DNA of 64,000 nt from Kangiellaceae bacterium (lineage in GTDB: Bacteria > Pseudomonadota > Gammaproteobacteria > Enterobacterales > Kangiellaceae): contig JAPHTP010000062.1 in the NCBI GenBank assembly GCA_026196875.1, forward strand, positions 1 to 64,000, given 5' to 3'. Position numbers and translations under genes: made by a program. Shown here piece by piece: positions 36,390-54,298 of this stretch (the first letter of the stretch is position 1; the number at the start of each line of letters is the position of its first letter). Under the pieces are notes generated by a model. It was not told where the DNA came from. It saw only the letters and a list, made by a program, of their open reading frames with translations, and did not search any database.

Positions 36390-37898
36390 TCAGCGCGCGT
36401 AACTCGGCAATTCCAAAGTTAGCTCGTTCGATTGATTTCTTCCGTTCTCTTTTGAAGTATATAGGGCTTGGTCCGCCATTTTGATCGCTTTTAACGGCGA
36501 ATAATCAGCGTGAGGGCTGGCAACACAAATACCAAGACTAACAGTAATAAATTTGCCTATAGGGCTACTCGGATGAGGAATTGCTGCTTGCTCTACATTA
36601 ACTCTGATTTTCTCCGCAATGTTTGATGCCTGTTCCATATTAGTATCAAACAAAGCGATTACAAACTCTTCTCCTCCAAATCTAGCAACTAGGTCAGATG
36701 ATCGCTGCACCGAATCTTGAATTAAAGACGACACTTTCACAAGGCATTTGTCCCCCTCCAAATGCCCGAGTTTGTCGTTATAATTTTTAAAGAAATCAAT
36801 GTCCACCATAATTAAGGAAAGCTTGAGTAATTTGCGGCTACAAATACGCCATAGGCGTTGGTATAAATTATCAAACTCGCGTCGATTTAATAGCCCGGTC
36901 ATTTGATCGATGTTGGCACTTTGAGTTAACTGGCTGAGTTTTTTTGATTCCAAAAGTCTTTGTCGAATCTTTGCTAATAGGTTTTCGGTAGAGCCATCTC
37001 GCATAAGAATATCAACCGCCCCGAGTGAAAAAGCAAGTGACTCGTCTTCCTTTCTTTCAAGGCTGTAAAGCGTTGGAATGTCTCTTATTGATATGTTTGG
37101 ATTTTTTAGAATGTCAATAGTTTGGAAGTTCTTGTCACTGTCGTTGGCAAAATCTAAAATAATCAGTTCAGGAGGATTATTCTCGGCGTTACGTATTAAC
37201 TCATTTAGGCTATCGTAATGAATAAATTCCATCGAATGGTCATTTTGTTGCAATTTCAGATATAGCTCAGGAGATTTAACGATTGCTATCGAATTTTCTC
37301 TTAAAATTCTACACACAAGTGCATTATCAGTTAACTCCTCCAGCTTATCTGAAACAAAACTAGCAATATTATCACCATGTTGCAGACCAAGAAGCTTGTT
37401 TCCATGTATAGACTCAATCGCTGGAATTCTTTCATCGAATTGCTCGTCCTGCCAGTACTGTTGCCATTTTTGCTGAATGCTGACAGCCTTCTCATGAAAA
37501 TTTAATTCGTTGATGCCAACAGAATTGAGTAAATTTCTTAAAACTAAAGTACTCGAAATGTCTTTACCATCCTTCCAGTAAGCATCGAATAACGCTGCTT
37601 GGTAGAGTGGAGCAATAGAAGGCTTCAATAACTGCACGGAAATCAAAGAAAGAATAGCAAGCCTGGTGTTAACGCAAAAACGAGGTTTGTTTATAACCAC
37701 GTCCTGTGCTCTTTGGCAAATCAAATTATATTCCTGAAGCAAGGTGTTCATTGCCGCAGGAGAAGACACCTGGCTATTTAAACCTGGTGCATGCTCGATA
37801 AAACACCACTGAACATCCGTTTCAAAATCTTGCGACTGAAGGCGTTTGTGCTGTACGTAGCAAAAAGGACAGTTTAGATCTGCAAATACTCGAATCAT
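36390..37898 (-). CDS. DsbA/FrnE-fold, receiver-like and GGDEF fusion (probable diguanylate cyclase)
   Basis: A cytoplasmic 502-residue fusion of three domains. Residues 1 to about 180 are a DsbA/FrnE-type thioredoxin fold with an N-terminal CPFC active site (C10, C13). About 200-315 is receiver-like, with LIILDF giving D249. About 325-495 is a GGDEF domain with MVDIDFFK, RFGGEEF (408-412) and an intact I-site RSSD (399-402) five residues before it. It should make c-di-GMP, with possible redox or thiol control through the N-terminal domain; the control is inference. No signal peptide is seen, so the thioredoxin fold stays in the cytoplasm. It has its own transcription unit, convergent to the duplicated-domain gene. 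Confidence 0.85.
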   Translation of the reverse strand: MIRVFADLNCPFCYVQHKRLQSQDFETDVQWCFIEHAPGLNSQVSSPAAMNTLLQEYNLICQRAQDVVINKPRFCVNTRLAILSLISVQLLKPSIAPLYQAALFDAYWKDGKDISSTLVLRNLLNSVGINELNFHEKAVSIQQKWQQYWQDEQFDERIPAIESIHGNKLLGLQHGDNIASFVSDKLEELTDNALVCRILRENSIAIVKSPELYLKLQQNDHSMEFIHYDSLNELIRNAENNPPELIILDFANDSDKNFQTIDILKNPNISIRDIPTLYSLERKEDESLAFSLGAVDILMRDGSTENLLAKIRQRLLESKKLSQLTQSANIDQMTGLLNRREFDNLYQRLWRICSRKLLKLSLIMVDIDFFKNYNDKLGHLEGDKCLVKVSSLIQDSVQRSSDLVARFGGEEFVIALFDTNMEQASNIAEKIRVNVEQAAIPHPSSPIGKFITVSLGICVASPHADYSPLKAIKMADQALYTSKENGRNQSNELTLELPSYAR

Positions 37899-38069: not shown

Positions 38070-39314
38070 TTAGAATCCGACACTAATCTTGGTACCGCTA
38101 GAATCACTGATCACATCTAAGCTCAACTGATGCGCTTCACAGAGGCGATTGACAATTGATAGTCCGATACCAAAGCCCTTGCTTGAACGTCCTTTAACAA
38201 GAGTCTCAGTGACCTTAGTTCGGATACCTTCTTCTATTCCTCCACCAGTATCACGCACGATTAACATATTTTCGTCAAATGCGATACTAACGCGCCCATT
38301 CAAAGTATATTGGAATGCATTTGAAACCAGGTTTGCAAGGATAATATCGACTACCCCCCGCTGGGCTAGCAATTTATCAGTGGGCTTAACGTCAACATCG
38401 ACTTCTATATCTTTATTTTCAATTAAGTATGCATTTTGAATGACTGTTTTTTCCGCTATGGGCAACACCGACACCTCGCTCTTATCGAGTTGACTGCTTT
38501 CTTCCCGAGCTAAAGAAAGCAAGGCGTCTACAGATAACTGCATCTGGTTAACCGCATATTCTATGCGCTTTAAAACTATTTTATCGTCATTGTCCGTTAA
38601 TCTTAAGGCCAGTAATTCCGTAGCACCTTTAATTGCGGCAATCGGTGTTCTTAGTTCATGACTCGCATCCCTGGTAAAATTCTGCTCACGCTCTACAAAG
38701 CGTTGAATTTTTTGCATAGCGCTTTCCAAAGAATTGGCAAGAACCCCAATTTCGTTAGGCGGGAATTGTTCAGAAATATTTTGTGGCAAGCTATCTGGCT
38801 CGGCTTGAGAAAACATTGTGACTAAGTTAGAAAGCGGATTAAGTGTTTTGACTGCAAACCAGTAAGCCAGTGCGATAGCGAAGGCAATCATCAACAAGGA
38901 CAATATAACGAGAACAGCAAGAACATCTTTTGCCAAGGGCCTAACTACCAGCATTTGACTAACCTCGGCAACGAGATAAAATGGAGGCGAACCTGTCGAA
39001 TGATGAAGATGGTAATGCCTCCCTTCCTCTCCATAAAACTCGATGCGCTTAGGCTCCTCTTTTAACATATCAAGTACTTCTTCAGGAAGTTCCTGCAGCG
39101 AGAAAAACAAACTAAGCGACGGATTGGTTGGAGTGGGATTGGCTACTCCCTTATCTAAAGAAGCTTGAATATGTTGAGCTTCTTCCCGCAGCATCCTTTC
39201 AATAAACGCGTCTTCAACCGTATAGGCAAATAAAAAATTAAATGAACTGTAGGCGGCGGATAAAAACAGAGCAAACAACCCAAAAGCGAGTATTAACCTG
39301 CGCTTTATGCTCAT
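38070..39314 (-). CDS. Sensor histidine kinase
   Basis: A 414-residue membrane histidine kinase. TM1 spans about 8-29 and TM2 130-155, enclosing a periplasmic sensor of about 100 residues with a His-rich patch RHYHLHH (99-105), which could bind metal. A HAMP-like linker is followed by the H-box FTRDASHELRTP (H219), N-box ILANLVSNAFQYT, and G-boxes DTGGGIEEG and GFGIGLSIV. Its start overlaps the response regulator stop (ATGA). Phosphotransfer to that regulator is inferred. Confidence 0.9.
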   Translation of the reverse strand: MSIKRRLILAFGLFALFLSAAYSSFNFLFAYTVEDAFIERMLREEAQHIQASLDKGVANPTPTNPSLSLFFSLQELPEEVLDMLKEEPKRIEFYGEEGRHYHLHHSTGSPPFYLVAEVSQMLVVRPLAKDVLAVLVILSLLMIAFAIALAYWFAVKTLNPLSNLVTMFSQAEPDSLPQNISEQFPPNEIGVLANSLESAMQKIQRFVEREQNFTRDASHELRTPIAAIKGATELLALRLTDNDDKIVLKRIEYAVNQMQLSVDALLSLAREESSQLDKSEVSVLPIAEKTVIQNAYLIENKDIEVDVDVKPTDKLLAQRGVVDIILANLVSNAFQYTLNGRVSIAFDENMLIVRDTGGGIEEGIRTKVTETLVKGRSSKGFGIGLSIVNRLCEAHQLSLDVISDSSGTKISVGF

Positions 39315-40045
39315 ATATCCTTCTCCAGGCTAAATCCAACACCATGGACGGTTTTGATAATTGCTTTGTCAAAAGGTTTATCTATCACTTGTCGCAATTG
39401 GTAAACGTGTGATCTTAGCGAATCTGATTCAGTAAGATCATCCCCCCAAATTCTTTGGCACAATTCAGAACGGCTAACTACACGAGGATATGCTTCGGCT
39501 AAAGTTAGCAGAATAGTATAAGGAATTTGGTGTAATGCGATCTCCTTATCGTTACGGGATACGATTTGCTTCTGTCGATCAATTTTTAGGCTTCCGATGG
39601 ATATGGAATGATCCGTTTGTAGCTGGTTTCGACGCGATAAAGCAACACATCGAACTTCAAGTTCTTCCAACGCAAACGGTTTGGTTAAGTAATCATCGGC
39701 TCCAAGCTCAAACCCTTTAACTTTGTCTCCCAAGCTATCTCTTGCGGTCAGCATTATGATTGGGATGCTACGCGTTGCTTGAGTTCGAATTTGCCGACAG
39801 ACCTCCCAACCATCCATCGCTGGAAGCATCAAGTCCAACACGATGACATCATAATAGTTAGCAAGGGCTAAACTCAACCCTTGCTTGCCATCTACTGCGA
39901 AATCTAAAGTATGGCCCTTAATTTCCATGTAGTCGGCAATATTCTGCGCAATACTGGATTGGTCCTCAACGACGAGTATATGTAATGCCGTATCACTTGA
40001 ACTCTGCCTTGAGCTACCTGAGTTACCGACCGTATTTGTATTCAT
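39311..40045 (-). CDS. OmpR-family response regulator
   Basis: A 244-residue regulator with a receiver domain (acidic pair E27/D28, phosphorylation site D71 in VIVLDLMLPAMDGW, Lys in LTKPF) and an OmpR-type winged helix at the C-terminus (ESDSLRSHVYQLRQVIDKPF). A Ser-rich extension of about 20 residues precedes the receiver. It is the middle gene of a DJ-1/regulator/kinase operon. Confidence 0.92.
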   Translation of the reverse strand: MNTNTVGNSGSSRQSSSDTALHILVVEDQSSIAQNIADYMEIKGHTLDFAVDGKQGLSLALANYYDVIVLDLMLPAMDGWEVCRQIRTQATRSIPIIMLTARDSLGDKVKGFELGADDYLTKPFALEELEVRCVALSRRNQLQTDHSISIGSLKIDRQKQIVSRNDKEIALHQIPYTILLTLAEAYPRVVSRSELCQRIWGDDLTESDSLRSHVYQLRQVIDKPFDKAIIKTVHGVGFSLEKDI

Positions 40046-40073
40046 TCTACTCTCTATAATAAGAAACGACGCG

Positions 40074-41195
40074 CTAGTTTGCCGCCACCAGATTATCTAA
40101 CATTTCTTTAGCCGCTTCCATTTCTGGGTTGCTTTTAAGCAGTTTTTTTAGCAACGACTTGGCTTTCTCTTTTTGCGCGAGCTTCACATAACCTTGGGCC
40201 AAGACTAAAGATAACTGTGGGTGCTGCATATAAGGAGAAGCCAATTCCATAAGCATAACTGAGTCTGTCACTTGCTGCTTGTTTTCTGAATGCATCATTG
40301 AATAATATCCATACATAGCAACTAGCTCGGGTTGATAGTGCTTCACATTATCTATGAATTGAGTTTTTGCACTATTGCTTCCTTTTAGAATCTCAGCTAC
40401 TAACTCTATAGTTCTGTCTTCCTTAAATAGTTCGAACGTCTTTGGCTTTATCCCCATAGATATTAGTAATTGCTTAGCTGTTTGTGATGTTGAAAATGGA
40501 TTTTGCCCGGTAACTAATCTCTCATCGGTGGCGACATGGCTTAACATCATCGGAGAACTTTCAAATTTTGCGCCTCTTTCTTTTAATCGGTCTTCTAGCA
40601 TAAAATCAAAGTGCTTAGCCCACTTTTTACCGAAAGCCTTTTCTTCCAGGTTAGTAAAACCATTGACTTTTTTGCCTCTGACCAAGTACTCACCATTGGA
40701 AAGCTTCACATCAACTAAAGCAGCAGGGCCATGGCACACTGCTGAAACACTACCCTTATTTTCGTAAATTTTTGCAATAGCATTTTGCAGTTTTTGATCC
40801 TTAGGCAGATCAAACATCGCTCCTTTACCACCAACAATAAATATTCCATCATAGATTAATGGCTCTATGTTTTTGGTTGCAATCGTATTTTCTAGCTTAT
40901 GCATAATTGTTGTATCGGCAATTACTATTTTATTGTATTCTTTTTCCGGATTATATTTATCAGCAACCACCGAACCACCTTTGGGGCTAGCGATGTCAAC
41001 TTCGACCCCATTGTTTTTAAACACTATGTAGGCTTTTGCAAATTCATCGAACTCATAGCCAGGCTTGGTTTCTCCCTCATCTTCACCATAACCGGATAAC
41101 ACCATTAGTACTTTTTTGCCACTACCAATCGAGGCAGTTAAATTCGCACTCAACACTAAAAACAACATTGCTATCAGACTAGTCAACTTTTTCAT
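40074..41195 (-). CDS. Exported DJ-1/PfpI-like protein with C-terminal TPR-like helices
   Basis: The ATG at 41195 has GGAG seven bases upstream and gives a signal peptide (KKLTSLIAMLFLVLSANLTA). Residues about 28-230 are a DJ-1/PfpI domain with the nucleophile elbow Cys in SAVCHGPAALV and GIFIVGGKGAMFDL before it, like class I glutamine amidotransferase or Hsp31/glyoxalase III relatives. The C-terminal 130 residues are helical, with a TPR-like end (LVLAQGYVKLAQKEKAK). It is the first gene of the operon with the two-component system. Confidence 0.8.
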   Translation of the reverse strand: MKKLTSLIAMLFLVLSANLTASIGSGKKVLMVLSGYGEDEGETKPGYEFDEFAKAYIVFKNNGVEVDIASPKGGSVVADKYNPEKEYNKIVIADTTIMHKLENTIATKNIEPLIYDGIFIVGGKGAMFDLPKDQKLQNAIAKIYENKGSVSAVCHGPAALVDVKLSNGEYLVRGKKVNGFTNLEEKAFGKKWAKHFDFMLEDRLKERGAKFESSPMMLSHVATDERLVTGQNPFSTSQTAKQLLISMGIKPKTFELFKEDRTIELVAEILKGSNSAKTQFIDNVKHYQPELVAMYGYYSMMHSENKQQVTDSVMLMELASPYMQHPQLSLVLAQGYVKLAQKEKAKSLLKKLLKSNPEMEAAKEMLDNLVAAN

Positions 41196-41400
41196 ACTCT
41201 TCTCCCTCATTCTAAAAACTATGGAGAAGATTAAGGCGAATGGTGTGAAACAAGTGTGAAATACCCGCTAACATTCTCTGAATCAACGCATAGTTTAAAA
41301 CTCACCGAACTATTTAAAATCACAATTACCTACACCTTTACCTAAAGTTAACTTGAGGTTTTATGATTAATTCAACTTAAACATATTTAGGAGATTAAAG

Positions 41401-52160: not shown

Positions 52161-54074
52161 TTAAATTGCTCTCAAATACTTCTCTATTTTCTTCAACCGC
52201 TTAGGCTTACTATAAAAATACCCTTGAGCCCCTTGCAGATCCAGGTCTCTTAAATAGTCAGCATCCTCTGATTTTTCTACCCCCTCCGCAAACACCTTAA
52301 TATTTTTGCTTGCCAAACTAATTAAAAGTGATTTTAGTAACAGTTGCTGGTGCGCTTCCTGATGAATATTGTTGATCATTCTTCTATCAATTTTCACCAT
52401 ACGGATTGGTAACAAGTCTAAGTAGGTTAACTCTTCATCAGGTGAACCAAATCTTTCAACACACCACCCCACTCCTAAATTAGAAAGCTGTGGCATGACA
52501 ATTTTTAGCTTTTCGAGGTTTTGATTGATATTAACTTCCTTAATTTCAAATACAATGTGTCTACATAATTCAGGAAAACTAGACAGTTTTCCCACTAACC
52601 AACCGACAAATCTCTCATCCAACAAGCTAGAAATGAACAGGTTGATTGAATATATCTGATTGCTAAGTTCCATCTCAGAAAACAGGTAGTGTTTAATCAC
52701 CCCATCCACGACTTGTCGATCAAATTCTGCTGCCAAACCACACTGATTCGCCATAGGTAAGAATGTATCTGCAGCAAGCACTTCATTACCGTCTTCAATT
52801 CGTGCATAAACCTCATGGTGATCAGTCTTGCTTTGGTCAAAATACTTAATTCTTTGTCCATAGAGTTGGACTTTCCGTTTATCCAAAGTCCTTTGTAAAA
52901 AACTCCGCCACTTCAAATTACCACGAACTTTGTCGCTAGAAAGCGCTTCTCCATACATAAACCAGTTGTTACCTCCTTGCAATTGAGAATTGCGTAATGC
53001 CATATCGGCTTCAGATAAGACTTTGTAATAGTCAAATCCCTGGTGGTAAGCAGATATTCCAACGTCGACGAACTGTTCTTTAATCTGGGTTTTATCGAAT
53101 ACAGTTTTCTCTAATTGTCTAATCAAGGTCTTGCAGATCATATCAACATTGTTTTTAGTTTGGTTCGGCAACAGCATGGCGAAATCGCTGCCTCTAAGCC
53201 TGGCAACCAAAGAGCCAGGGATCTGCGCTATATACTGGCGTAAGATATTGGCGATCCCGCGCAAGCGTGAATCATTAAGCACTTGGTTACTTTCAAAATC
53301 CTTCTCTACAAAACTGAGTAATATAAGTAAGCCGCTTTCAGGCTCTTCGTGGTGATGCAACCTCACTTGAAACTCGGCCTTGAAAAATAGCTGATTGCCA
53401 AGTTCTGTTACTTCATCCACGTAGGAAGTCTTACGAATCTGCTCCGTCAATTCAATTTTATCTCTATGCAGCAGAGTATTGGACAAAATCAATTGATTAA
53501 TTGCGCGAGTTACGGCATTTGAAGGGCCCGAAATTTTAGTCGAATTGTTAGCCCCGCCGTGTTCCAGAATATAGTGAGCGTATTTTTCGAGGTTAAAAAC
53601 CCAGTTAAATCGCCAGAAAATAAAACCGGACAATAGACAAATAACACCAACAATTATCAACCAATCGAGAGGTGTTAATAACTCGGTGCTTGCTGGAGGG
53701 ACACGTAAATTAACTTCAATAGTTAGAATCGTGTTTTGTTGTGTATTAAGATAAAAATGATACCAAGTAGGAGTCTCCGGTGGACTACCTCTCTTAGCGT
53801 CGACAACTTTATTTTGTTCGTCTTTTAGTCGCCAAAAGTCAATTTGAGGCAAGGTGTCTAGACGGCTTAACAGGTCACCGAGATTCTGTCGTGTTATAGA
53901 CTTATTAAAATGCTGGGCGAGTAACAGCTGAATCTTTGCCAGTTCGCTAGCAATAACTTTTTGTTGGGCTTGTTCGATTGTGGTATGACTAGTCGAATAC
54001 TTTGCCAACATAAAGCCGGAAAAAACGACCACAGCCATAAACCAAACAAGTGTTTTAAATTGCCGGCTTACCAC
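52161..54074 (-). CDS. Membrane protein with degenerate GGDEF and EAL domains (CsrD-like)
   Basis: A 637-residue protein with two membrane helices (about residues 10-25 and 135-155) around a periplasmic part, then GGDEF and EAL domains. The GGDEF motif is replaced by RLRGSDF, and the EAL motif by YARIED; EAL metal-site segments read FEIKEVNIN and CVERFGSP, so neither activity is expected. This matches CsrD, which promotes RNase E decay of CsrB-type RNAs, or a LapD-like receptor. The GTG at 54074 has AAGGAGG five bases upstream and is preferred over an ATG at 54149 with no site. Confidence 0.75.
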   Translation of the reverse strand: MVSRQFKTLVWFMAVVVFSGFMLAKYSTSHTTIEQAQQKVIASELAKIQLLLAQHFNKSITRQNLGDLLSRLDTLPQIDFWRLKDEQNKVVDAKRGSPPETPTWYHFYLNTQQNTILTIEVNLRVPPASTELLTPLDWLIIVGVICLLSGFIFWRFNWVFNLEKYAHYILEHGGANNSTKISGPSNAVTRAINQLILSNTLLHRDKIELTEQIRKTSYVDEVTELGNQLFFKAEFQVRLHHHEEPESGLLILLSFVEKDFESNQVLNDSRLRGIANILRQYIAQIPGSLVARLRGSDFAMLLPNQTKNNVDMICKTLIRQLEKTVFDKTQIKEQFVDVGISAYHQGFDYYKVLSEADMALRNSQLQGGNNWFMYGEALSSDKVRGNLKWRSFLQRTLDKRKVQLYGQRIKYFDQSKTDHHEVYARIEDGNEVLAADTFLPMANQCGLAAEFDRQVVDGVIKHYLFSEMELSNQIYSINLFISSLLDERFVGWLVGKLSSFPELCRHIVFEIKEVNINQNLEKLKIVMPQLSNLGVGWCVERFGSPDEELTYLDLLPIRMVKIDRRMINNIHQEAHQQLLLKSLLISLASKNIKVFAEGVEKSEDADYLRDLDLQGAQGYFYSKPKRLKKIEKYLRAI

Positions 54075-54298
54075 TCTTACCTCCTTGCTTGGGTGTACGC
54101 TATCAGCAACTACAGATCGCTCAATCTGCCTCCTGAGATCTACCTTCATTTTAAGCTTAGTACAATAGACCTCTTTGTGTTAGTGCATTACGCGATAATA
54201 ACGCGTCAGTTTTATTGCATGATACGTGCCTAGATGGTTTAATAATTTAACCGCTAAAACTCTACATTACACTGAATAAATACAAGGTTAGAATCATT

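Follow-up and report, generated by a model that had tools for sequence, protein, structure and literature searches.

The gene described here lies in a window of 64,000 nucleotides, i.e. the whole stretch of DNA that was analyzed, from a Kangiellaceae bacterium. It is an open reading frame of 502 aa that occupies exactly positions 36390..37898 of the minus strand, while the plus strand of the same interval is full of stops; these same ends had been given before, without a strand. The stop-to-stop frame spans 506 residues; the ATG at 37898 follows only four residues (TIKI) after its beginning, and the first domain starts at once. This leaves no room for a signal peptide, so that the cytoplasmic location of the original prediction holds as predicted from the N-terminus. 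Promoter and terminator matches around the gene do not rise above those in shuffled sequences. The product is a single polypeptide in which a DsbA-like domain (residues 1–186; 37341..37898), a receiver-fold domain (residues 200–320; 36939..37301), and a GGDEF diguanylate cyclase domain (residues 326–490; 36429..36923) follow one another, all encoded on the minus strand, with the catalytic and I-site motifs intact. The DsbA-like domain thereby occupies the position that a sensor domain normally has in such cyclases. Cysteines are found at residues 10, 13, 32, 61, 75, 196, 353, 385, and 458 only and, beyond the CPFC motif that contains the first two, the sole Cys common to most relatives is C385 (23 of 24 rows).

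The GGDEF domain, assigned from Pfam, AlphaFold, and a fold search, matches PF00990 over residues 328–489 with 167 bits (cut-off 23.8; E = 3.6e-49). Its catalytic motif GGEEF (residues 408–412; 36663..36677) and the inhibitory I-site RSSD (residues 399–402; 36693..36704) are present, as had been claimed, together with a further motif of this domain, DIDFFKNYND (residues 366–375). Among relatives, RxxD is kept in 24 of 24 rows and GG[DE]EF in 21 of 24. Based on the profile and the catalytic motif, the window protein is a predicted diguanylate cyclase. Its GGDEF domain shares up to 52% identity with unrelated receiver-GGDEF proteins vs about 44% with the other fusions.

For the N-terminus, the original prediction had pointed to a CPFC site (C10, C13) in a DsbA/FrnE-like domain and had proposed a search against PF01323. 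CPFC does stand at residues 10–13 (37860..37871, from sequence and alignment), and Pfam DSBA (PF01323) matches residues 2–138 of the full window protein above its cut-off (31.9 vs 25.6 bits; E = 1.4e-7), covering profile positions 2–143 of 191; the score is 35.0 bits with residues 1–186 alone, and the C-terminal part of the domain is placed by alignment with homologues. All 13 fusion DsbA-like regions given to Pfam, out of 28 N-terminal rows, have a DSBA match at E ≤ 0.01. Fused and stand-alone DsbA-like proteins match each other in profile–profile comparison with a probability of 98.6 (E = 5e-16) over columns 1–134 only, and there are weak PDB profile matches to FrnE (E = 0.001), DsbA (0.005), and a possible HCCA isomerase (0.03). 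DSBA domains are thioredoxin folds with an inserted helical domain, and the window protein has both the CxxC and the aligned Pro of this type. The latter is P159, within RIPAIES (37410..37430), a presumed cis-Pro loop: the assignment is assumed from the MAFFT alignment, and the profile–profile match stops before this residue.

Structure prediction of residues 1–192 alone has a mean pLDDT of 42.7. In the full-length AlphaFold model, residues 1–199 are unmodelled, the DsbA-like blocks having pLDDT values of 31–48, and the alignment behind the model holds receiver-GGDEF relatives only (36 sequences, i.e. 39 picked from 80 loci, minus 3 with stops). DsbA-like relatives suitable for such an alignment were sought in viral contigs, and none were found there. 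Sequence profiles thus point to a DsbA-like N-terminal domain that has CPxC, the aligned cis-Pro, and the DSBA profile in common with FrnE and other cytoplasmic DsbA-family oxidoreductases. It differs from the FrnE family in being fused to signalling domains and in lacking the C-terminal CXXXXC of many FrnE members. According to one study, FrnE is predicted to be cytoplasmic and CXXXXC is not present in all FrnE (PMC8945050). The genome under study also encodes a DSBA-family protein in which CIWA replaces CxxC (L003:1432-2178).

Between these two domains, AlphaFold predicts a receiver-type alternation of strands and helices over residues 203–328, with five strand–helix units from residue 203 (block pLDDT 69–90), D249 just past the third strand, and a helix at 304–328 that leads into GGDEF. 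The Pfam receiver profile (PF00072) has no match in the window protein; among the three relatives scanned, P0003 passes (31.3 bits; cut-off 30.2), L180 falls below (16.9), and P0002 has none. The NCBIfam PleD model aligns with residues 226–490 under its own cut-off, and the best PDB matches in Foldseek are WspR, PleD, and DgcR. These top sequence and fold matches likewise consist of a receiver fold, a helix, and a GGDEF domain with an I-site, from which the window protein differs by its N-terminal DsbA-like domain and by a degraded phosphorylation pocket. Specifically, a receiver that accepts phosphate needs an acid pair, an Asp, a Thr/Ser, and a Lys, and by alignment the window protein has K208 and S209 where the acids are expected, D249, S279/L280, and R300 where the Lys is expected. 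The receiver-like domain claimed around D249 therefore stands as a fold, but a working phospho-receiver is unsupported because this pocket is degraded. Across the family, 18 of 25 rows have Asn at the phospho-Asp position and 7 have Asp, though the window protein, which keeps D249, is not itself an aspartate-less receiver (ALR).

A count of fused homologues, also proposed at the outset, finds the fusion in three separate lineages (the genome under study, G455, and genus g333), and it is therefore neither a chance joining nor a lone artefact. In its own order, residues 1–186 are matched in 4 of 394 genomes (E ≤ 1e-3), the other three matches being open frames of 120–221 aa, and a 13-row profile finds 2 of 257 genomes at E ≤ 1e-8, the second being a frame of 228 aa. 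None of the six other genomes of its genus is matched, which counts against reading the protein as a thiol-sensing cyclase. Within the class, 39 of 369 genomes are matched at E ≤ 0.01 and four contain fusions: the one under study, G455 (502-aa frame), G756 (528 aa), and G661, where the frame is broken in two. Across 78 loci (duplicates included), GGDEF occurs within the matched frame only in the first three of these, and the 12 class matches without a locus comprise the latter half of the broken G661 gene, L226, and ten open frames of at most 317 aa. A phylum sample gives matches in 19 of 398 genomes at E ≤ 1e-6, the 18 besides our own being frames of 202–301 aa. In the order of G455, one of eight genomes has the fusion, and the other matches are frames of 210–230 aa.

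G756 belongs to an order of 41 genomes in a single family; 23 of these genomes match, all within the 31 of genus g333, and the two other genera have none in ten genomes. Seventeen of the 23 carry the DsbA-like region and GGEEF in one frame, which in G790 leaves the contig near its end; five more are cut by contig ends, the fusion being seen incomplete for most, and one (G661) is frame-broken. The split of the G661 gene (L139 / L176) may be an assembly error or mark a pseudogene. Second copies with a degenerate GGDEF and a kept RxxD are found in three genomes, i.e. RGGSF in L179 (G784), GGGSF in L180 (G790), and KGGMF in L181 (G774), and G782 is a fourth g333 genome with an extra piece beyond the first copy. 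Residues 1–186 have no match in plasmid records at E ≤ 0.01. Among phage records, 134 match the whole protein, none over 80% of its length, and the 20 matches listed start at residue 166 or later; the best 80 of 448 relatives from a genome-contig scan all match from residue 200 or later.

The nearest common kin of the N-terminal domain are stand-alone DsbA-like proteins, in frames of 207–259 aa and mostly of the DYICPFCYIG type. A closer unfused relative (L155:3768-4409; 213 aa, NCPFCFALNE) is found with a profile E of 3.6e-30, its Pfam DSBA score of 17.3 being below the cut-off. This gene shares 13 bases with a PAS-HisKA-HATPase-REC open reading frame, the start codon of which is as mechanically listed, and a REC-HD gene follows 5 bases past that frame (whole stretch L155:3768-7152). 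The HD gene has an HD_5 match and looks like an HD-GYP c-di-GMP phosphodiesterase, the GYP part of which we presume. At this locus, a member of the DsbA-like input family hence adjoins a kinase and what may be a c-di-GMP phosphodiesterase, an unfused arrangement seen in one of the six genomes of its order.

In a tree of DsbA-like domains, 14 fused rows plus the unfused L125 are split off by a long branch with a support of 100/100 from 13 stand-alone and two FrnE-like rows, which make up the whole other side; L125 is itself a long branch. The fused rows thus lie apart from the two FrnE-like rows. In a quick free tree of GGDEF domains (11 fused and 109 other rows), the fused rows do not come together (3 changes). 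Closest to the window protein in it are receiver-GGDEF proteins of other phyla that had been fetched as its best matches. The best tree in which the 11 fused rows are kept as one group is 47 log units better, and one clade is unrejected (p-AU = 0.90). For a single origin of the fusion vs independent re-fusion, these sequence data are compatible with one origin.

Just upstream on the same strand, the interval 38070-41210 holds genes for a DJ-1/PfpI protein (with TPR matches below cut-off), an OmpR-type regulator, and a histidine kinase. The kinase gene (38070..39314, minus strand; ORF list and Pfam), a neighbor outside the unit described here, ends 171 bases from the fusion gene and overlaps by 4 bases with the regulator gene (39311-40045, minus strand; same basis). 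Because the two overlap, the regulator is likely the partner of the kinase, and none of the ORFs in 14 other fusion loci is a relative of this kinase. Between 28000 and 48000, the only window ORF besides the fusion with a relative in g333 loci is an AMP-ligase-like gene about 8 kb off. Among first-copy loci of g333, gene families cl1 and/or cl2 are near the fusion in 11 of 12 (G756 has neither), and both flanking genes are on the opposite strand in 8 of 12. No gene family was found to adjoin the fusion in each of the three lineages; therefore, context gives no common partner, which again counts against a thiol-sensing cyclase. Elsewhere in the window, a 662-aa ORF (52161-54149) has, judged by eye, the look of a degenerate GGDEF-EAL protein of the CsrD/MshH type.

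Conservation was scored over 28 rows, i.e. the window protein, L123, and 26 N-terminal pieces of g333 (partial ones included) from 23 genomes, and the counts are not independent because most rows come from this one genus. All rows that cover the positions have C10 (28 of 28) and P159 (27 of 27). C13 is kept in 25 of 28, with Ser in L157, L171, and L179 (genomes G772, G764, and G784), so that an intramolecular disulfide is unlikely to be obligatory for the whole family. Two rows (L165, L181) have another residue in place of the Pro that separates the cysteines; like the Ser rows, they are a point against thiol sensing by the cyclase. Identity of the DsbA-like domain to g333 is 28.5% for the window protein and 35.2% for L123, with 32.6% between these two; other rows are closer. 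In nine overlapping close pairs, all within g333, dN/dS is 0.09–0.45 for the DsbA-like domain, 0.04–0.24 for the receiver, and 0.02–0.11 for GGDEF, i.e. below 0.5 throughout.

Taken as a cytoplasmic diguanylate cyclase with a DsbA-like thiol domain as its sensor, an interpretation to which we give slightly better than even chances, the protein would work as follows. C10, with C13 where present, would switch between thiol and disulfide, mixed-disulfide, or adduct forms with the thiol state of the cytoplasm, and this change would alter the packing of the DsbA-like domain against its receiver-fold neighbor. The receiver-fold domain would serve as a dimerization adaptor without phosphorylation, as the second receiver of PleD does, and in this respect the two seem alike. 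The predicted helix 304–328 would pass the change on to the cyclase dimer and thereby set how much c-di-GMP is made, with RxxD as the site of product inhibition. We infer redox control of the fusion cyclase, and the originally proposed tie of c-di-GMP output to thiol chemistry gains indirect support from the kept C10 and P159, the low dN/dS of all domains, the three lineages, and the unfused relative that overlaps a signalling gene. Against it count the normally reducing state of the cytoplasm, the low confidence of structure prediction for the DsbA-like fold, the DsbA-like domain being more variable than GGDEF, and the higher identity of the window protein's GGDEF to unrelated receiver-GGDEF proteins than to the other fusions.

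The CPFS rows leave room for a monothiol or adduct mechanism, in which the domain would sense a ligand in the style of HCCA isomerase/GST-kappa or of monothiol glutaredoxins, with C10 taking glutathione, a persulfide, or an electrophile and no intramolecular disulfide needed. Such a sensor would fit an invariant C10 beside a C13 that can be Ser, also in proteins that keep GGEEF (L157 and L171), and the PDB profile match to a possible HCCA isomerase. However, CxxC with an aligned Pro is the layout of dithiol oxidoreductases, and its persistence in nearly all rows makes this alternative rather unlikely. We find it still less probable that the DsbA-like domain serves as an inactive scaffold or binds a partner protein, with cysteines that play no part in signalling chemistry. 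A domain of this kind could well evolve faster than GGDEF, as this one does (mean identity of 63% vs 77% over 17 g333 orthologs, and higher dN/dS), but the active-site positions C10 and P159 are among those kept. That a histidine kinase, for example the one upstream, controls the cyclase by phosphorylating D249, with a merely structural DsbA-like domain, is very improbable: D249 is present after the third strand of the predicted fold, the first acid position is D in 24 of 26 rows, and the kinase gene is close and on the same strand, but K208/S209, R300, and the frequent Asn count against it, as do the overlapping regulator gene and the lack of a relative of the kinase in the 14 other loci.

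Several described systems resemble the proposed thiol-sensing cyclase. In Neptuniibacter caesariensis, a DsbA module that goes with an aspartate-less receiver was noted in 2015, with a redox link proposed and the gene adjoining an operon with a glutathione S-transferase (PMC4395418). That protein, compared here through its published description, has Cys at the Asp position, while the family studied here has Asp or Asn. Thiol redox state sets c-di-GMP turnover through PdeC (CSS domain) and HmsC-HmsD, which sense periplasmic disulfides (PMC8846402), unlike the window protein, which has no signal peptide and a DsbA-like domain of its own. In RitR, which derives from a response regulator, cysteine oxidation replaces phosphorylation (PMC5965902); it differs from the window protein by its single linker Cys and DNA-binding output. 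The redox inputs to c-di-GMP named in the redox passages of a 2022 review are haem, flavin, hemerythrin, and periplasmic disulfides, and its text contains no "thioredoxin" and "DsbA" once, for the periplasmic system (PMC8846402). Judging from this review, sensors that directly link thiols of the cytoplasm to c-di-GMP turnover seem to be few. A literature search, mostly by titles and abstract openings, found no DsbA-GGDEF fusion; subscription papers and architecture entries of protein databases were outside its scope, so an existing entry is possible.

The second copies L179, L180, and L181 are candidate c-di-GMP receptors. They could run in reverse because they keep C10 and the c-di-GMP-binding RxxD and have lost the catalytic GGDEF residues. 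The family might then be a two-way device, in which catalytic copies would turn thiol state into c-di-GMP and degenerate copies would let c-di-GMP binding control a cytoplasmic thiol oxidoreductase, although we regard this as a long shot. Overall, the kept Cys and the three-part layout in relatives suggest a little-studied link between thiols and c-di-GMP. If true, this coupling of the cytoplasmic thiol state to c-di-GMP would be testable in one purified soluble cyclase, for which the natural CPFC and CPFS variants would be ready-made comparisons.
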